Notes: a model not told the origin generated them from the letters alone. Shown: positions 1,845 through 44,601, numbered from the stretch's first letter. The stretch is 64,000 bases of DNA from Actinomycetes bacterium (GCA_021791195.1 JAJYXB010000007.1:62001-126000), one strand, 5' to 3'. Numbers and translations: made by a program.

Positions 1845-2825
1845 ATGAAGATACTGATTACAGGTGGCGCCGGCTACATCGGCAGCATCCTCACCGAGAA
1901 ATGTCTCGAGGCCGGCGACGAAGTCATTGTCTACGATAACCTCAGCACCGGTCACCGGGAGGCGGTTCCCGCCGGCGCCGCGCTGGTGGTTGGCGATGTT
2001 GCCGATCCCGGACTGATGACTGCCACGCTCAGGAAGTCACGCGTCGAAGCAGTTGTCCACATGGCCGGTTTCATCGAAGCCGGGGAATCGATGATCGACC
2101 CTGGCAAGTATTTCCGCAATAACTGCTGCCGGCCGGTCGAACTGCTGGAAGCGATGGTCTCGGCCGGCGTTGACAGGCTGCTTTTTTCTTCCACGGCCGC
2201 GGTCTACGGTAATCCCCGCACCGAGTTTCTGGATGAGGAGCACCCGCAGGCGCCAACCAATGCTTACGGCCAGTCCAAGCTCTTTTTCGAACAGATGCTG
2301 GACTGGTACGAGCGCATCCACGGCATCCGTCACGCCGCGCTCAGGTATTTCAACGCGGCCGGCGCAACGGCAGAGAGGGGAGAGGATCATCGCCCCGAGA
2401 CCCACCTGATACCGCTGGTGCTGAAAACGGCGCTCGGCCAGCGGCAGCGGATCGAGATCTACGGCACCGACTACGCAACCCCGGACGGGACCTGCGTGCG
2501 CGATTACATCCACATAGCCGATCTGGCGCAGGCCCATCTGCTGGCGCTGCGGGGGCTCGGCGCCGAGAGTATGCATTACAATCTTGGCAACGGCAAAGGC
2601 TACTCGGTGCGGGAGGTGATCGAAACCGCGCGCGAGGTCACCGGCAGGGATTTCGCTGTCAGGGAATCGGCCAGGCGCCCGGGGGACCCGGCGGTGCTGG
2701 TGGCCAGCTCGAAAAGGATCGAAAGCGAGCTCGGCTGGCGGCAGGAATACCCGGAGCTGAAAACGATTGTCGCCAGCGCCTGGGAATGGCACCAGCGTCA
2801 TCCCGGCGGCTACGGCGGAAGCTGA
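1845..2825 (+). CDS. galE: UDP-glucose 4-epimerase
   Basis: A 326-residue extended short-chain dehydrogenase. The N-terminal NAD-binding motif TGGAGYIG is at residues 6-13, the Ser/Thr-containing SSTAAVYG in the middle, and the catalytic YGQSK after it. Length and the RDYIHIADLA segment fit GalE, which interconverts UDP-glucose and UDP-galactose for cell-surface glycans. The ATG at 1845 was chosen because the Rossmann motif starts at once; the longer upstream reading is antisense to the YmdB gene. A bidirectional hairpin terminator follows the stop. Epimerases of related sugars share these motifs, so substrate is inferred. Confidence 0.9.
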   Translation: MKILITGGAGYIGSILTEKCLEAGDEVIVYDNLSTGHREAVPAGAALVVGDVADPGLMTATLRKSRVEAVVHMAGFIEAGESMIDPGKYFRNNCCRPVELLEAMVSAGVDRLLFSSTAAVYGNPRTEFLDEEHPQAPTNAYGQSKLFFEQMLDWYERIHGIRHAALRYFNAAGATAERGEDHRPETHLIPLVLKTALGQRQRIEIYGTDYATPDGTCVRDYIHIADLAQAHLLALRGLGAESMHYNLGNGKGYSVREVIETAREVTGRDFAVRESARRPGDPAVLVASSKRIESELGWRQEYPELKTIVASAWEWHQRHPGGYGGS

Positions 2826-3001: not shown

Positions 3002-3181
3002 TTAATCGTCGCCACCGCGATCATGGTGGCCGCCGTCATCACCGTGGTGATGATACTCGCTGCTACCACTGCTGACATGGTCACCGTCGCCGTGATGCTC
3101 ATCACCGAAGGCTACCGCGGCAAATGCAAGCGTAGTCGCTGCCACGAGCCAGATACTGGCTATGATTGCCCACTTCCTCAT
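3002..3181 (-). CDS. Small secreted His/Asp/Gly-rich peptide, family copy 1
   Basis: A 59-codon gene starting with ATG behind a strong GAGGAGGTGACAGG ribosome-binding site. Residues 1-24 form a signal peptide (MRKWAIIASIWLVAATTLAF then AAVA) with likely cleavage before FGDE. The mature part of about 35 residues has eight His and many Asp and Gly, no Cys, and a central HHHGDDGGHH block. The signal peptide and ribosome-binding site match two other genes at 3726-3884 (minus) and 9007-9153 (plus). I do not recognise the family. Composition suggests metal binding outside the cytoplasm, which is inference. Confidence 0.72.
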   Translation of the reverse strand: MRKWAIIASIWLVAATTLAFAAVAFGDEHHGDGDHVSSGSSEYHHHGDDGGHHDRGGDD

Positions 3182-3725
3182 CCTGTCACCTCCTCATCTG
3201 TATGAGATGTAATAACCAAAATCCTACCAATAAACTTGGTAATTCAGCGTATCAAACAGAAACAGGGCCCGTCAAGACACACGGACCCTGTTTCGCTCAC
3301 TTTTTACAAATGAGGAATGATCTTGTGACACCGGATTAACCGCCTTTTTTGCCCACATTCACCCGTCCATACGGGCAAGGCCGAAAAGTGCCACAAATTA
3401 TTTACTTATAAGTCATGGGAGTCGGCAGCTAAAGCCGGGATGCGAAAAAAAGCATCACCGTCATGCAGCCAGAGAGCGGAAGCATCGATATGACTCGAGC
3501 AGATAAATTGCACCGGGCCCAGAACAGGATTCCAGAACGGGATCCTAAAGAGCAGCATCATCCATCAATTGCTCCGGATGAAAACCGAAGAACGTGATTG
3601 CCTCTGCTACTCTTCAACCCAAATACCAGAACTGGAACTCTATAAACCACTCGAACTGTCGACGCGAACTTTATTCATGCTGAGTTTTATTACGCTGGGG
3701 AACGCGCTTCCGCATCCGTCAGCGG
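3182..3725. other. Intergenic region between peptide genes 1 and 2
   Basis: About 540 bases with no supportable gene. It holds the leader of peptide gene 1, including a stem-loop at 3260-3293. There are short hairpins around 3430-3465 that match no RNA family I know. Plus-strand open frames here have no ribosome-binding site and no coding character. Confidence 0.5.
3260..3293 (-). promoter_or_regulatory. Stem-loop in the leader of peptide gene 1
   Basis: AAACAGGG-CCGT pairs with ACGG-CCCTGTTT around an eight-base loop, about 80 nt upstream of the ATG of peptide gene 1. On the minus strand the right arm overlaps a TTGACG that could be a -35 box. It may be an attenuator, a terminator of upstream transcription or part of the promoter region. 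Confidence 0.4.
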
Positions 3726-3884
3726 TCAGTCGCCGCCGCAACCATCCTGGTTGTACTGGCAATGACCGCCATCACCGCCATCACCGCCACCGCTGTGGTG
3801 ATCGTCGCCAAAAGCGACGGCACCAAAGCCGAGCGAGACCGTTGCGACCAGCCATACGGACGCCAAAATAGCAAATTTCCTCAA
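3726..3884 (-). CDS. Small secreted His/Asp/Gly/Cys-rich peptide, family copy 2
   Basis: A 52-codon gene with a TTG start seven bases after GAGGAGGTGAACAGG. The signal peptide MRKFAILASVWLVATVSLGF followed by GAVA is nearly identical to copy 3 at both DNA and protein level. The mature peptide begins FGDDHH, is rich in Gly and Asp and ends with GHCQYNQDGCGGD, giving two Cys that copy 1 lacks. A -35/-10 promoter with a CRP/FNR-like palindrome lies 66-104 bases upstream. It is divergent from the O-antigen-ligase-like gene. Function is unknown; export and metal binding or a disulfide are inferred from composition. Confidence 0.75.
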   Translation of the reverse strand: MRKFAILASVWLVATVSLGFGAVAFGDDHHSGGGDGGDGGHCQYNQDGCGGD

Positions 3885-3949
3885 CCTGTTCACCTCCTCA
3901 AAAACTTCCCGTGTTTGTCGGACCTGGATTCCGGCCCTATTGTCGCACT

Positions 3950-3988
3950 ACAATAGCATAGAGGTATATATTGTGCAATCAATCACAA
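3950..3988 (-). promoter_or_regulatory. Promoter with CRP/FNR-like operator for peptide gene 2
   Basis: On the minus strand TTGCAC (3978-3973), a 17-base spacer and TATTGT (3955-3950) form a sigma-70 type promoter. The palindrome TTGTGATTGATTGCACAA (3988-3971) has the TGTG-N8-CACA pattern of CRP/FNR-family sites and overlaps the -35 box. The same arrangement precedes peptide gene 3. The site also lies 31 bp before the divergent gene at 4019. Confidence 0.65.
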
Positions 3989-4018
3989 GTACCGAATAGC
4001 ACAAATTATCCAACCAAT

Positions 4019-6106
4019 ATGACTGCATTAGAAACCCGCTGGGAAACCAGACATATCTTCCTCTCCTGGCTTGCTCCGGCCTGCGCCATGGCCGTGTTCC
4101 TGTACCTTTCGATTTTCGACGGCGGATACTTCTCGCGAGAGATATATCTGGCCGGCACCGGGATGTGGGCGGTCCTGGGGCTGGCGCTACTGCTGAACTG
4201 GGACTGGGTGCGAATGCCCCACGGCGCGGCGGCGCCCGCAGCCAGCCTGGCAGCGGTCACAGGCTGGATCCTGCTCACCATGATCTGGTCGATCAGCCCC
4301 AATGCCTCCCTGATCGAATTCGGCCGCGCCGCTTTGTATCTCGGTGTATTTATCGCCATCCTCATCGGTCCGCCGGGCCGCAAGGCTGTCATCTGGACGG
4401 CGTCGCTGTTTGTGGGGATGGTGACCGGTCTGGCGATGTTCGCGCTGCTGGCCAAGATCAATCCATCGATCTCTGTCGATTACCTGTACGCCGGCGGCCG
4501 CATCATGGGAACCATCGGCTACTGGAATGGGCTGGCCGCTCTGGTGGCGGTGACGATCCTGCCGGCGCTATGGCTGGCAGCCAGTGAATGGGTGTCCTGG
4601 ACCGGCCGCATGGCCGCGACGCTGGCGCTGGCGATCCTGGGACTGACTCTCTTTTTCACGCTCTCGCGCGGCGGCCTGCTTGTTGGCGCCGTCGGCGTCG
4701 CCCTTTACCTGATGCTGGCGCCCGAGCGGCTGGGTGGCATACTTTCGCTGCTGTCGGCGTTTGTTCCCGGAGGTTTGATGGCCTGGTACGCCAGCACCGC
4801 GTTGCCCAGCCTCCAGACCAAAGCCGCCGGCGGCCGCATCGGCGACGGCGACGGCCAGCATTTCGCTTTTGCGCTGATCATGGCCCTCACCGCCACAATC
4901 GTCCTGAAAGCGGCCACGCTGCTTTTGCCATCCAGGGTCCCGCGGACCCGCAACGGTATGATTGCCACCGGCGCGGCGGCGTTGATCGGGCTGGTGCTGG
5001 TGGCCGGCATCGGTGTCGCGGAAAGGCAGCGGATCGAAAACAGGATCAGGGGAGCGCAGTCACAAACAGCCGTCCAGGTCTACGACTACAACCGCAGCTC
5101 GATCGACGAGCAGGGTGTGGCGCGGCTGGCGTCGACTTCCAACAATCGCGCCGAGTACTGGAGCATCGGCCTGACCAACTTCCGGGATCATCCGCTGCTG
5201 GGCACCGGCGCCGGTACATACCGGTTTGCGGATGCGCGGCTGCGTTCGGTCAACGGGCTGGCGCGCGATCCCCATTCGATCTGGGTGCGCTTCCTTTCGG
5301 ACCAGGGCATTACCGGTTTTCTTCTGCTGCTGGCGTTTTTAGGCTCGCTGGGATGGGTTGTTTTCCGGCAGGTACGCAAAAATCACGGCCTGCTGACAGA
5401 CGGTCTTTATATCGCCTTGATTGTCGGCTGCCTCGCGTGGCTGGCCGACACGACTTTTGAATGGGACTGGGAACTGCCGGCCGTGGGCTTCTCCTTTTTC
5501 CTGCTGGCGGCGCTGGTGATCCGCCTGGGCAGCGCTGGCGAGCCGAATGCCCGGCAGCAGGCTGAATCTGCTGCGGCTGCCGGCCGGCTGCCCCAGAAAC
5601 AGATTATCCCCGGGATCCGGATGCTGACCGGCCAGGTCAAGACAGCGATGGTGCTGCTGTCGATGACTTTGACCATCGTCTTTCTTGTACTTCTGTTCGC
5701 CCAGGTTGAGAACCAGCGCGCGTCCGATCTGTTAAGCGCCGGCGACCCTGCAGGAGCGGCGGCGGCGGCGCATACGGCGCACAGGCTCAATTATTTTGAC
5801 GGCGGCCCGCTGCTGATTCTGGCGGAAGCCTCGCAGCAGGAAGGTGATTTTTATGCGGCCCGTGATTATTATCAGTCCGCTCTCGATCGCGATCCGCAGC
5901 GGTCCGCCTATCAGGAGGATCTGGCGCTGCTGGAATTCTACGATCTGAAGCTGACCGGGCAAGGTCTGGCTGATCTGAACAAGGCCGTCAACCTGGATCC
6001 GCAGTATCGACCGTTGCATCTGGAGCTGCAGCGGATGTATGGCGATTTGATAAAGTATCAGAAAAGCGGCAAAATGCCCGCGGCTCCCAATCCGACGCAA
6101 TACTAA
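4019..6106 (+). CDS. O-antigen ligase/polymerase-like membrane protein with C-terminal TPR region
   Basis: A 695-residue protein. About ten to twelve hydrophobic segments fill residues 10-500, with a long external loop around 340-400 containing a GTGAGTYR-like stretch typical of the Wzy/WaaL (O-antigen ligase) family. A last membrane helix near 545-565 is followed by about 120 residues of TPR-like helical repeats (YYQSALDRDPQRSAYQ). Family members join or polymerise glycan repeats outside the membrane. The ATG at 4019 is preferred over an upstream TTG, which would fall inside the regulatory palindrome. Exact acceptor and donor are unknown. Confidence 0.75.
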   Translation: MTALETRWETRHIFLSWLAPACAMAVFLYLSIFDGGYFSREIYLAGTGMWAVLGLALLLNWDWVRMPHGAAAPAASLAAVTGWILLTMIWSISPNASLIEFGRAALYLGVFIAILIGPPGRKAVIWTASLFVGMVTGLAMFALLAKINPSISVDYLYAGGRIMGTIGYWNGLAALVAVTILPALWLAASEWVSWTGRMAATLALAILGLTLFFTLSRGGLLVGAVGVALYLMLAPERLGGILSLLSAFVPGGLMAWYASTALPSLQTKAAGGRIGDGDGQHFAFALIMALTATIVLKAATLLLPSRVPRTRNGMIATGAAALIGLVLVAGIGVAERQRIENRIRGAQSQTAVQVYDYNRSSIDEQGVARLASTSNNRAEYWSIGLTNFRDHPLLGTGAGTYRFADARLRSVNGLARDPHSIWVRFLSDQGITGFLLLLAFLGSLGWVVFRQVRKNHGLLTDGLYIALIVGCLAWLADTTFEWDWELPAVGFSFFLLAALVIRLGSAGEPNARQQAESAAAAGRLPQKQIIPGIRMLTGQVKTAMVLLSMTLTIVFLVLLFAQVENQRASDLLSAGDPAGAAAAAHTAHRLNYFDGGPLLILAEASQQEGDFYAARDYYQSALDRDPQRSAYQEDLALLEFYDLKLTGQGLADLNKAVNLDPQYRPLHLELQRMYGDLIKYQKSGKMPAAPNPTQY

Positions 6107-6142
6107 CCGGCGCCACAACATCCGCCCGCACGCAGATTCGTG

Positions 6143-7021
6143 ATGGAGTATTCATTGAACTTGATTAAAAGAAATATCTTGGCAGCCCTGCTCTTCACCC
6201 TGGCAATGACGGCGATAGCCACCGGCTGCGGCAGCGGTCCGGCTGCGGGCACCGGCGCGACCCGGATGGCGCCTGCGGCGCCACAGGCTACATCGACGGT
6301 TCCGGGCGCAAATTACACTTTCGCGGTCTGCGGTGACAACCGGACCGAGGGGATTGGTAACGGCACTCTGACAAAAATAATTCAATCCGCCAAAGCCAAA
6401 GGGGCAGCGTTCATCGTAGACACTGGCGATGTCAGCAACGTCGGCAATCGCGTCCAATTGACCGAATATCTGAAATTTACGCAAAACGCAGGCATCAGGT
6501 TTTACACCGTGCCGGGGAACCATGACGTCGGCAGGGGGGGAGTAAGCGACGCATACGCCAGCGTGATCGGCGCTTATTATTACAGCTTCAATTACGGCGG
6601 CGACCATTATCTGGTGGCTGACAACGCCGACGATTCCACCGGCATCGACGGCAAACAGATGAGCTGGATCGAAACTGACCTGGCCGCCAACCGGGATAAA
6701 CGTCATCAGTTCATCTTCGCGCACATCCCGGTCGCCAGTCCCACGCTCGATGCCGGGCACGTCACCGGCGAGGGCTCCGACGCCGGGCTTGAATCCGGCA
6801 AGCAACTGGCGCAGCTTGCCGAGAACACGCCGAACGTCGCCGACTTGTTCTTCGGGCACATACATGCCTACATCCCTTACCGGATCGGCAACCTGCCGGC
6901 TTACATCACCGGCGGCGCCGGCGCCCCGCTATACGGCACGCCGGCAACCGGCGGCTATTATCATTACCTGCTGGTAACTGTCACCGCGGCTGGAATCAGC
7001 GTGGAGGTAGTCAGAGTCTGA
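6143..7021 (+). CDS. Calcineurin-like metallophosphoesterase, probable lipoprotein
   Basis: A 292-residue protein with an N-terminal membrane signal and a lipobox-like ATGC around residue 30, so it is probably anchored outside the cytoplasmic membrane. The metallophosphoesterase motifs occur in order: CGDNRTEG, DTGDVSN, VPGNHDVG, FAHIPV and FFGHIHAYIP. These give the usual two-metal site. A preceding GTG at 6140 is possible, but the ATG is favoured. It lies 36 bases after the O-antigen-ligase-like gene and may be co-transcribed. The substrate is unknown. Confidence 0.82.
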   Translation: MEYSLNLIKRNILAALLFTLAMTAIATGCGSGPAAGTGATRMAPAAPQATSTVPGANYTFAVCGDNRTEGIGNGTLTKIIQSAKAKGAAFIVDTGDVSNVGNRVQLTEYLKFTQNAGIRFYTVPGNHDVGRGGVSDAYASVIGAYYYSFNYGGDHYLVADNADDSTGIDGKQMSWIETDLAANRDKRHQFIFAHIPVASPTLDAGHVTGEGSDAGLESGKQLAQLAENTPNVADLFFGHIHAYIPYRIGNLPAYITGGAGAPLYGTPATGGYYHYLLVTVTAAGISVEVVRV

Positions 7022-7048
7022 GCGGGCGCAACCCGATCGCGCCCTAAA

Positions 7049-7381
7049 TCAGACCTTGTAGCCCATCGCTTCGGCCAGACGCAGATGCCTGCGCGCCGTG
7101 CGCTGGTCGCCGAGCTTCTCGGCGCAGCGCGAAAGGCAGTAATGGGCATAATCACTGGTCGGGTACAGCTCCAGGACTGCTTCGAATTCGGCAGCGGCCC
7201 GGTCATAGCGCCCGCTGGCAAAATAAGCCCGCCCCAGCGTCTCCCGAATCGAGCTGCGGTCTGGTGCGGCGCGGCGGGCCCTCTCCAGCACCACCGCGGC
7301 CTGCGCCGGATTGCGCGTCTGCAGCAGATCCTCGCCGCGCCTCAGCAGTTCGTATGCGCTTTCATTCAAGGAATTATCCAT
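7049..7381 (-). CDS. Small TPR-repeat protein
   Basis: A 110-residue protein composed of about three tetratricopeptide repeats, for example LGRAYFASGRYDRAAAEFEAV followed by HYCLSRCAEKLGDQRTAR. There is no signal peptide or membrane helix, so it is probably cytoplasmic. TPR units mediate protein contacts, and no enzymatic role can be assigned. It is convergent with the metallophosphoesterase gene and divergent from serS. Confidence 0.72.
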   Translation of the reverse strand: MDNSLNESAYELLRRGEDLLQTRNPAQAAVVLERARRAAPDRSSIRETLGRAYFASGRYDRAAAEFEAVLELYPTSDYAHYCLSRCAEKLGDQRTARRHLRLAEAMGYKV

Positions 7382-7548
7382 GTTTCATCCAATCTCATTG
7401 TAGCTGCATCGGCTCCGGTCAGGAACATCTGCGCCCGCTGGCCTTGGCTACGTATTAACTGCTCTATCCGGCAGAGGTTTAAACGCGGACAGGATTTCCG
7501 ATAGACTAATCGCGGCCCGCATGTCTACGGGAACAGGCAAGGAGAACG

Positions 7549-8826
7549 ATGCTCGACATAAAAAAACTGCGCAGCCAGACGGAAGAGATGAAAGCGGCCC
7601 TGGAGAGCCGGGGCATCGATGCGCCGCTGGATGAATTCATCGAGCTGGACAAAAAACGGCGCGAGCTCATCGTCGATGCCGAAGAGAAAAAGGCGCTGCG
7701 CAACACCGCTTCCGACCGGATCGCCGCCGCCCGCAAGGCCGGGGAGGATGCAGCCGGCATGATAGAGGAGATGCGCAGGGTGGGGGAGGAGATCAAGGCC
7801 CTGGACCATCTGCTCCGCGATGTGGAGATGCAGCTGGACGCAATCGTGCTCGAGCTTCCCAACACGCCGCTGCCGGACGTGCCGGTCGGTCCGGATGAAA
7901 GCGCCAACGTCGAGGTCCTGAGAGTGGGGGAGCCGCGCAGCTTTGGTTTCCAGCCCAAGCCGCATTGGGACCTGGGCGCCGAGCTTGACATCATCGACCA
8001 GGAGCGGGGAGGGAAGGTCGCAGAATCGCGCTTCACCCTGCTGAAAGGCGCCGGCGCCCGCCTGGAGCGCGCGCTGATAAATTTTTTCCTGGACCTGCAC
8101 ACCGGCGAACATGGTTACACCGAACTGTTTCCACCCATCCTGGTCAATTCCGAAAGCATGAAAGGCACGGGGCAGCTGACCAAGTTCGCCCAGCATGAGA
8201 TGTACAAGCTGCGGGACGACGATCTTTATCTGAACCCCACCGCAGAAGTGCCGGTGACCAACATCTTCCGCGACGAGATCCTGAAGGAAGACGAGCTCCC
8301 GGTGCACGTGACCGCATATCTGCCCAGCTTCCGCCGCGAGGCCGGCGCCGCCGGGCGCGACACGCGCGGCCTGATCCGCCAGCACCAGTTCAATAAAGTG
8401 GAGCTGGTCAAGTTCGTCCTGCCGGAAACCTCCACCGGGGAGCTGGAAAGCCTGACAGCCAACGCCGAGGAAATACTCAGACGGCTCGAGCTCCCATTCC
8501 GGCGGGTCGCGCTTGCCTCCGGCGACCTGGGCTTCGCTTCGGCGAAGACATACGATCTCGAAGTGTGGCTGCCATCCTATGATGACTACAAGGAGATCTC
8601 TTCCTGCTCCAATTATCTGGATTTCCAGGCGAGGCGGCTCAATGTCCGCTACCGTCCGGCTGGAGGCGGCAGACCGCAGTTTGTCCATACACTCAACGGC
8701 AGCGGGCTGGCCGTCGGGCGCACGTTCGCCGCGATTATCGAGAATTATCAGAACGAGGACGGCACAGTGACGGTGCCGGAAGCGTTGCGCCACTACATGG
8801 GCATGGACGCGATCAGGCCCCTGTAA
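7549..8826 (+). CDS. serS: Seryl-tRNA synthetase
   Basis: A 425-residue class II aminoacyl-tRNA synthetase of normal length. The N-terminal 110 residues are the long coiled-coil arm that recognises the variable arm of tRNA-Ser. Motif 2 is visible as FRREAGAAGRDTRGLIRQHQF, and motif 3 as NGSGLAVGRTFAAIIENYQ. The segment SSCSNYLDFQARR is typical of SerRS. The ATG at 7549 follows AAGGAGAACG. It charges tRNA-Ser with serine, and four tRNA-Ser genes lie in this window. No T-box leader is seen upstream. Confidence 0.97.
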   Translation: MLDIKKLRSQTEEMKAALESRGIDAPLDEFIELDKKRRELIVDAEEKKALRNTASDRIAAARKAGEDAAGMIEEMRRVGEEIKALDHLLRDVEMQLDAIVLELPNTPLPDVPVGPDESANVEVLRVGEPRSFGFQPKPHWDLGAELDIIDQERGGKVAESRFTLLKGAGARLERALINFFLDLHTGEHGYTELFPPILVNSESMKGTGQLTKFAQHEMYKLRDDDLYLNPTAEVPVTNIFRDEILKEDELPVHVTAYLPSFRREAGAAGRDTRGLIRQHQFNKVELVKFVLPETSTGELESLTANAEEILRRLELPFRRVALASGDLGFASAKTYDLEVWLPSYDDYKEISSCSNYLDFQARRLNVRYRPAGGGRPQFVHTLNGSGLAVGRTFAAIIENYQNEDGTVTVPEALRHYMGMDAIRPL

Positions 8827-8903
8827 TCGCCGGGGCTGGACCGGACGCTCCTTAAGCTTTCAATGCAATTGAATATGTTCTGATTATTGTGCTTGATGAT
8901 ACT

Positions 8904-8941
8904 TGTGAAATATTGCACATAACTGTTCATCATGCTATGCT
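8904..8941 (+). promoter_or_regulatory. Promoter with CRP/FNR-like operator for peptide gene 3
   Basis: TGTGAAATATTGCACA (8904-8919) keeps the TGTG-N8-CACA pattern found before peptide gene 2. TTGCAC (8913-8918), a 17-base spacer and TATGCT (8936-8941) form the promoter. Box order and spacing, and a leader of about 60 nt, are the same as for gene 2. Confidence 0.65.
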
Positions 8942-9006
8942 CTGACAACCGATAACGGGCGAATAACTGGCCTGAAACCGTGAAGCTCCGAGAGGAGGTG
9001 AACAGG

Positions 9007-9153
9007 TTGAGGAAGATAGCTATTTTGGCATCCGTGTGGCTGGTCGCTACAGTGTCGCTCGCTTATGGCGCTGTCGCTTTCGGCGATGATCATCATGGTG
9101 GAGGCGGCGACGACGGCGGTCATTGCCAGTACCAGCATCATTGCGATGACTAG
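9007..9153 (+). CDS. Small secreted His/Asp/Gly/Cys-rich peptide, family copy 3
   Basis: A 48-codon gene with a TTG start after GAGAGGAGGTGAACAGG. The signal peptide MRKIAILASVWLVATVSLAY followed by GAVA differs from copy 2 at only a few positions. The mature peptide of about 24 residues starts FGDDHHGGGGDD and ends GHCQYQHHCDD, giving five His, two Cys and several Asp. It has its own promoter at 8904-8941 and no obvious operon partner. Conservation of the signal peptide, ribosome-binding site and residue pattern among three copies argues that the gene is real. The function is unknown. Confidence 0.77.
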   Translation: MRKIAILASVWLVATVSLAYGAVAFGDDHHGGGGDDGGHCQYQHHCDD

Positions 9154-9504
9154 TATCATCTGGACGGAATCGCGTCCCCAGCAATAAATAAGCATGAAAA
9201 AGTCGGGACTTGTATTTGTGCGCTTTGCGTCCCGGCCCGGGTATATGGGGCTGAAGAGTGACTGAAGCTGTCAACTTCGAGTTGCATGTCGAAGCGTGGG
9301 AAGACGCGCCTTAAATCGGGTTGCGGTGCGCCCTGTCTGGAACTCCCGCAAGAAGATTCTCCACGATTTTTTTTAAGCTCCCTGCCTGGTTCATTTCCGG
9401 CTATTTCAGGATTAATCTGATTATTGCATCCGCCCGTAATCATTATTCTTGAATCTGACGATATTTGTAACTAAACCGCTTTAAGCGAGGTGCAGGTAAG
9501 AGCC
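9154..9504. other. Intergenic region after peptide gene 3
   Basis: About 350 bases without a supportable gene. Short GC-rich inverted segments occur at 9203-9237 (GTCGGGAC and GTCCCGGC), which might end the peptide transcript. The minus strand shows GGGACGCAAAGC, a fragment reminiscent of cyclic-di-GMP riboswitches, but the rest of that fold is absent. Confidence 0.4.
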
Positions 9505-9759
9505 ATGTCAGAACAGCATGTAAGAACGTACGCCAAGGAAGCAGATTTTCAACTGGATCATCTTCTGATGCAAAGGGATGGGTATCAGATGGTCTTCATC
9601 TCCAGCAACGTAAAGATCAAGGACAACCACAGGACCAGTCTGGGCGCACGCCTGGCGAGTCTGGTGGAAACCATAAAACCGGCTGCGTTGATGCGGCTGC
9701 TGGCCGGCAGCGGTAATCATCACTGCCGGATCATCGCCGTATACGAGAGGCACAGATAG
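9505..9759 (+). CDS. Hypothetical 84-residue protein
   Basis: A short soluble protein with no recognised domain. The N-terminal third is charged and includes a YAKEADFQLDHLL stretch; the remainder is mixed alpha/beta in character and ends with HHCRIIAVYERHR. The ATG at 9505 follows a weak GAGGTGCAGG site. There is no signal peptide or membrane segment, and the following hairpin at 9791-9821 could terminate it. Coding character is moderate and no function is proposed. Confidence 0.5.
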   Translation: MSEQHVRTYAKEADFQLDHLLMQRDGYQMVFISSNVKIKDNHRTSLGARLASLVETIKPAALMRLLAGSGNHHCRIIAVYERHR

Positions 9760-44253: not shown

Positions 44254-44313
44254 TAGCAAAGGACAGACCGGTGACCGGCCCTCTTTCGTCCACGAAGAGC
44301 GGCTGCTTGAAAT

Positions 44314-44490
44314 CGGCCTGGCAGGTCTTCTGGCTCCCGGGGCCTACATCATTTCCGTGCCTTCCCGGACCGGAGGTCCAGTGGCGGTGGAAAAACTACT
44401 TCCCCGGTTACAGCGGCGGGCCCGCGCCGGAATCTCACCGGCTTCCCTATTCTCCCTAAAAACGAAGGGCACCTGGCCATTATCTGTTTC
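44314..44490 (-). promoter_or_regulatory. Cobalamin riboswitch
   Basis: On the minus strand the conserved B12-box-like core AGGGAAGCCGGTGAGATTCC (44448-44429) is followed by the GCGCGG-CCCGCCGCTG segment. The 3' element GCCAGAAGACCTGCC (44334-44320) is present. These are diagnostic of adenosyl/aquacobalamin riboswitches. A terminator hairpin follows before the ThiC-family gene, so high cobalamin should reduce its transcription. Confidence 0.9.
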
Positions 44491-44601
44491 CACTGGCAAA
44501 GATATCAGCCGGCGGGCTCGCCCGTCAAACCGGGAAGCCAGCCGCGGCAGGTGACGACCGGGAGCAAGCAGAAAGCAGGCGGCGCAGCCAGAAGCCCGCC
44601 G

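Follow-up and report, generated by a model that had tools for sequence, protein, structure and literature searches.

Tiny exported peptides inherited alongside a Wzy_C/TPR membrane ligase in Thermoleophilia: candidate ligase acceptors or partners

Among the closest described systems is that of Paenibacillus alvei, where WsfB combines a Wzy_C domain with a C-terminal TPR region, the locus includes galE and the S-layer protein, SpaA, is glycosylated on Tyr (PMC2943079). A second set of systems is represented by TfpO, TfpM and PglS, which are dedicated O-oligosaccharyltransferases (O-OTases) that are often encoded close to their acceptor, with the glycotag of PglS sitting between two Cys residues (PMC12645811). 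The pglL gene is found beside a pilin gene in 21 of 31 cases, and in A. baylyi, where pglL adjoins comP, the inference from gene neighbourhood was tested (PMC3643930).

The locus considered here lies within a 64-kb window (64,000 nucleotides, the whole stretch of DNA that was analysed), in which genes for three tiny peptides are found close to a gene for a putative ligase (Table 1). It shares with the WsfB/SpaA system the pairing of Wzy_C with a C-terminal TPR, the lack of LPS, the presence of galE and an exported protein with a possible Tyr acceptor; however, the acceptor in P. alvei is a large S-layer protein, whereas here it would be a tail of 24-37 residues whose glycosylation we infer. 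The likeness to the TfpO-pilin, TfpM-pilin and PglS-ComP pairs is that an O-OTase-like gene adjoins the gene for a small exported protein, and it extends to the Cys pair that brackets the PglS site (PMC12645811, PMC3643930). Those enzymes modify type IV pilins, and do so on Ser/Thr, whereas the present peptides have no pilin signal and few or no Ser/Thr residues, and the similarity of the ligase to TfpM is below the cut-off. As a working type the locus would be a variation on the pairing of O-OTase and acceptor, one whose acceptor is tiny and not a pilin. At the level of sequence the peptides appear to be new, with no described family matched.

Table 1. Positions of the peptide genes, their neighbours and associated elements, numbered from the first letter of the window.
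Feature	Position	Strand	Details
galE-like UDP-sugar epimerase	1845..2825	+	cassette flank
Peptide copy 1	3002..3181	-	59 aa, ATG start; signal MRKWAIIASIWLVAATTLAFAAVA
Ribosome-binding site, copy 1	3182..3195	-	GAGGAGGTGACAGG; from sequence
G+C-rich hairpin upstream of copy 1	3259..3294	-	counterpart in G004/G005
Conserved non-coding element downstream of copy 2	3606..3669	-	about 62 nt; kept in the six peptide-bearing genomes
3'-UTR motif after copy 2	3674..3700	-	CCCCAGC..AATAAA..TCAGCATGAA
Peptide copy 2	3726..3884	-	52 aa, TTG start; exported part 28 aa, HCQY...C
Ribosome-binding site, copy 2	3885..3898	-	AGGAGGTGAACAGG; core search of window
Promoter-like element, copy 2	3950..3978	-	TTGCAC-17-TATTGT; by eye, below tool threshold
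Wzy_C membrane ligase/putative O-oligosaccharyltransferase	4019..6106	+	695 aa from ATG; C-terminal TPR; divergent
Calcineurin-like phosphoesterase (MPE)	6140..7021	+	other cassette flank
Promoter-like element, copy 3	8913..8941	+	TTGCAC-17-TATGCT; by eye
Ribosome-binding site, copy 3	8993..9006	+	AGGAGGTGAACAGG; core search of window
Peptide copy 3	9007..9153	+	48 aa, TTG start; exported part 24 aa, HCQYQHHCDD
3'-UTR motif, copy 3 version	9176..9198	+	
Small orphan ORF after copy 3	9508..9759	+	84 aa, no signal peptide seen

A sequence-only reading of this DNA had proposed a trio of very short ORFs, each behind a strong ribosome-binding site (RBS) and all sharing a signal peptide, and translations and alignment bear this out, the signal-coding DNA of the three copies aligning closely. 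In the host genome the peptide gene is duplicated in tandem and present again at a second site. The same reading had given the genes TTG starts, which is correct for copies 2 and 3 and wrong for copy 1. The RBS of all three copies follows the pattern GAGGAGGTGA(A)CAGG, in full GAGGAGGTGACAGG at copy 1 and GAGGAGGTGAACAGG at copies 2 and 3, and a search of the window with the 14-nt core AGGAGGTGAACAGG, allowing up to 2 mismatches, returns copies 2 and 3 only, where 0.27 matches are expected. A blind scan of the window and related loci for an RBS followed by a signal-like ORF of 35-110 aa recovered the family with few unrelated matches. The promoter-like element of copy 2 reads TTGAAC-17-TATTGT in two relatives (G004 and G005), genomes that also contain syntenic orthologues of copy 1. 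The hairpin between the tandem copies either terminates the transcript of copy 2 or belongs to the promoter region of copy 1.

With copy 3 as the query, the host genome (G000, 2.15 Mb, 97% complete) yields exactly these three copies. When 99 relatives are searched using copy 2, clear relatives of full length turn up in two members of the host's own genus and in three members of a second genus within its family. A profile of the 12 sequences detects 12 members of full length, spread over 6 of the 19 genomes of the host's family, which belongs to the Thermoleophilia, with three members each in G000, G004 and G005 and one each in G010, G013 and G015. Outside these six genomes no full-length member is present among 399 genomes of the class and 396 of the phylum. 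In a collection of genome contigs a single-protein scan gave no match and an alignment scan gave no members beyond the genomes already found, and a tblastn search of plasmids with the peptides was also without a match. Comparison of the peptides with Pfam, NCBIfam, PHROGs, PADLOC and the PDB produced nothing credible, in keeping with the earlier view that they belong to no recognised family (Pfam, NCBIfam, PHROG and PDB all being without a match). From these searches the peptides appear to be a previously unnamed, lineage-restricted orphan family of exported peptides of about 50 residues.

Fundamental to any interpretation is whether ORFs of this size encode anything at all. Substitutions between family members favour third codon positions, dN/dS is about 0.05-0.2 for the five pairs compared, and in all five the nonsynonymous changes fall below those of neutral simulations that preserved how many base changes there were and of which type (P = 0.025, 0.0025 and 0.006, and 0/4000 twice). 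With the exported part taken alone, the same simulation gives P < 0.05 in four of the five pairs. The sequence-only reading had made its case hinge in part on homologues in related genomes with synonymous-biased variation, and these are found. On this pattern of change the tiny ORFs are genuine coding genes. That they instead arose by chance in low-complexity DNA rich in G+C, or serve only as a regulatory leader ORF, is scarcely credible: the genes are indeed very short, with repetitive codons and ORFs on the antisense strand, but this account is at odds with the codon-position bias and purifying selection in the five pairs, with the syntenic conservation and with the AGGAGGTG-type RBS that is present at 12 of 12 family genes.

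Across the 12 members the signal is more conserved than the tail, with M1, R2, K3, A5, I6, A8, W11, L12, L18, A22 and A24 invariant, and the sequence supports export by a Sec-type signal, which would be cleaved after AVA or two residues further on (AF[AG]|D), both sites satisfying the -3/-1 rule. No pilin domain is matched in Pfam or NCBIfam, and the signal reads as AxA-type rather than prepilin. In the exported part D27 is invariant, as is one Tyr that is always preceded by Glu or Gln (12/12), and 11 of the 12 members contain exactly two Cys, arranged as C[EQ]Y...C or EYC...C. The single exception is copy 1 of the host genome, whose 35-residue exported part has 8 His and no Cys and yet keeps the EY pair. 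The same reading had also placed conservation in the signal, where it holds, and in the first mature residues, where it does not: the FGD(D/E)HH start is a feature of this genome only, being replaced in relatives by FADH, FAHE, LGDH or FGDG, and what is kept beyond this genome is D27, the Tyr of [EQ]Y and the Cys pair. Every exported part has 3-8 His (17% His overall), a net negative charge and 1-4 hydrophobic residues. Several members are nearly devoid of Ser/Thr, the exported part of copy 3 having none, and the Tyr is the only hydroxyl residue retained in every exported part. The G010 peptide, when modelled, shows at moderate confidence (mean pLDDT 70) a helix across the signal and a hairpin (40-44/47-51) that contains the Tyr as well as the two Cys.

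Multihaem cytochromes c of roughly 280 aa, with a near-identical signal and RBS, are found in many genomes of the family (L054, L059, L046, L018, L047, L055). Those of L054, L059 and L046 resemble the peptides in their signal and AGGAGGTG RBS, but at about 280 aa they carry many CxxCH motifs, whereas this haem motif is absent from all 12 peptides, and the peptide profile catches only the signal part of the cytochromes. The weaker profile matches to larger proteins, among those translated, are likewise signal-peptide stretches or unrelated sequence, chiefly in these multihaem cytochromes. An origin of the peptides from these cytochromes was considered and rejected, the likeness being limited to the signal and the peptides being without CxxCH.

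The ligase of the window matches the Wzy_C/O-antigen ligase domain at 49.5 bits against a curated cut-off of 31.7, and each of the five complete orthologues has a Wzy_C match together with low-scoring TPR_2 and TPR_14 matches at the C terminus, after the membrane domain; the ligase profile also matches TPR structures at positions 560-680. The motif H[NSQ]x9Gxx[GTY], which is of the catalytic type described for WaaL, is likewise present in all five. Neither PglL_A nor Wzy_C_2 is among the ligase matches up to E 0.01, and the score against the TfpM family (NCBIfam NF058641) is 21.8 bits, where the cut-off is 600, and therefore the ligase is not filed in the PglL/PglS or TfpM classes. LpxC is found in none of the 19 family genomes (control positive in 4 of 14), making a role as LPS ligase (WaaL) implausible. 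By its domains the enzyme remains a candidate protein O-oligosaccharyltransferase, wall-polymer ligase or Wzy polymerase. Its build resembles that of the S-layer/pilin O-oligosaccharyltransferases. A structure model of the ligase (pLDDT 45) is too poor for use.

How closely, then, are peptide and ligase tied? The galE-side peptide gene and the ligase gene are divergent, with 134 bp between their start codons in the window, and the order galE, peptide(s), Wzy_C ligase, MPE and/or TPR, SerRS is common to the six peptide-bearing genomes, MPE being missing from it in G004 and G005. The orthologous ligase accompanies the peptide in six of six genomes, and none of the 13 genomes that lack the peptide has it. 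These 13 have only distant Wzy_C proteins (26-30% identity) at other places, and the flanks fetched around such paralogues, when scanned, contain no such peptide. In G002, G003, G009, G011, G014, G016 and G017 the flanks are joined, with galE beside MPE or TPR, and neither peptide nor ligase is present. The presence of the cassette is patchy on the SerRS tree, and therefore it has probably undergone several losses or transfers. The association is strong, with the caveat that adjacent genes can go in one deletion and that the independent events are few; the sequence evidence supports a coupling of peptide to ligase, and the co-occurrence suggests, without proving, that the peptide is the dedicated partner or substrate of the ligase. 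In G006 the MPE-galE site (L134 8500-9520) holds other sequence with a membrane-protein-like reading frame, and the peptide-ligase site may be a variable insertion spot. At the second site, the small orphan ORF lies just downstream of the copy 3 peptide in G000, G004 and G005 (43-44% identical in G004/G005), even though copy 3 has a different location in G000, and it is not found in the remaining genomes of the 19 and is without a Pfam/PHROG match. The sequence-only reading had mentioned neither the co-inheritance with the ligase nor this pairing. A GtrA-type gene is found further up the same block in the relatives.

Taken together, these features lead us to favour, tentatively, a reading in which the Wzy_C/TPR ligase has the peptides as its dedicated acceptors or partners, the peptides being possibly glycosylated at the invariant Tyr. 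In such a process Sec would export the peptide, the ligase would move a polyprenyl-linked glycan onto it with the TPR tail helping to recognise the protein, and the Tyr, beside or inside the Cys pair, would serve as the hydroxyl acceptor, with the His/Asp/Gly-rich stretch acting as a flexible hydrophilic spacer. The Tyr is the strongest candidate for the site, being the sole hydroxyl residue kept in all the exported parts, although both the transfer of glycan and its site are put forward with the same reserve. Against the acceptor reading, the known Wzy_C acceptors compared are pilins, S-layer and other larger proteins rather than 25-residue tails, the N. gonorrhoeae enzyme failed with a short peptide in vitro (PMC3643930), and the ligase could be a Wzy-type polymerase. 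The fuller proposition of a minimal, cassette-borne protein O-glycosylation in LPS-less actinobacteria, in which a Wzy_C/TPR transferase acts on a tiny non-pilin peptide at a single Tyr beside a Cys pair, is rather improbable.

A serious though somewhat doubtful alternative, and the one suggested by the sequence-only reading, is that these are exported metal-binding peptides, which would buffer or chelate Zn, Cu, Ni or Fe at the surface or outside the cell by way of His, Asp and the Cys pair, the link to the ligase being incidental or reflecting merely shared cell-surface regulation. The argument is solely one of composition, that of an acidic exported chain rich in His, Cys and Asp (3-8 His in 12/12, two Cys in 11/12), and it recalls SmbP, SilE/PcoE and Hpn, exported or His-rich metal-binding proteins that are likewise small and rich in His, with possible metal ligands. 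The peptides differ from these in being shorter and in having a Cys pair and an invariant Tyr, with neither a Pfam/NCBIfam relation nor a metal-resistance context found. Moreover, the number and spacing of the His residues differ among orthologues and the N-terminal HH is not retained, copy 1 has lost both Cys, no metal transporter or regulator is recognised among the neighbours read or scanned at either locus, and the invariant Tyr and the joint inheritance with the ligase are left unexplained. Glycosylation, on the other hand, would not explain the steady His content, and the evidence is not decisive between the acceptor and metal-binding readings.

Two further explanations invoke a peptide that acts or matures in other ways. 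An unlikely one has a disulfide-clipped extracellular signal or small cell-surface component, processed by signal cleavage only and unglycosylated, that regulates or joins the polymer made by the ligase. The Cys pair flanking the predicted hairpin (mean pLDDT 70), the diverged tails of the paralogues and the possession of their own promoter-like sequences and strong RBS are consistent with this, but no receptor, protease or transporter gene is recognised beside the loci, copy 1 is without Cys, and the hydrophilic tails speak against a membrane-active bacteriocin. It is very unlikely that the peptide is a RiPP backbone with the signal peptide as its leader. The leader is conserved more than the tail, and the His/Cys/Asp-rich tail resembles the substrates of MNIO enzymes; yet no MNIO (PF05114, MbnB_TglH_ChrH) is found in the genome (control positive), no maturase is recognised among the adjoining genes, and the leader is a Sec-type signal like that of the multihaem cytochromes here.

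Should the peptides prove to be dedicated acceptors, a Wzy_C oligosaccharyltransferase would have natural substrates of unusually small size, probably modified on Tyr. They would also be a possible short glycosylation tag and give a first means of access to the surface glycans of uncultured Thermoleophilia. If their role is instead in metal binding, they would represent a new type of exported metal peptide. Either way, very short exported genes that start with TTG merit a targeted search.

The DNA around the peptide genes has conserved features of its own. The element downstream of copy 2 occupies syntenic places in L038, L039, L040, L034 and L036, across two genera, and at this single locus it is 93% identical over 43 nt between G010 and G013, although the peptide gene itself has diverged widely at its synonymous sites. 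Its candidacy as a known or structured RNA was rejected, with no Rfam match above chance and a consensus fold of only -4.2 kcal/mol. The 3'-UTR motif is common to copies 2 and 3, where its shared form reads CCCCAGC..AATAAA....AGCATGAA, and a similar form follows their orthologues in G004 and G005. Elsewhere the window contains a cobalamin riboswitch (125 bits) at 44303-44491 on the minus strand and, at other places, six tRNAs.
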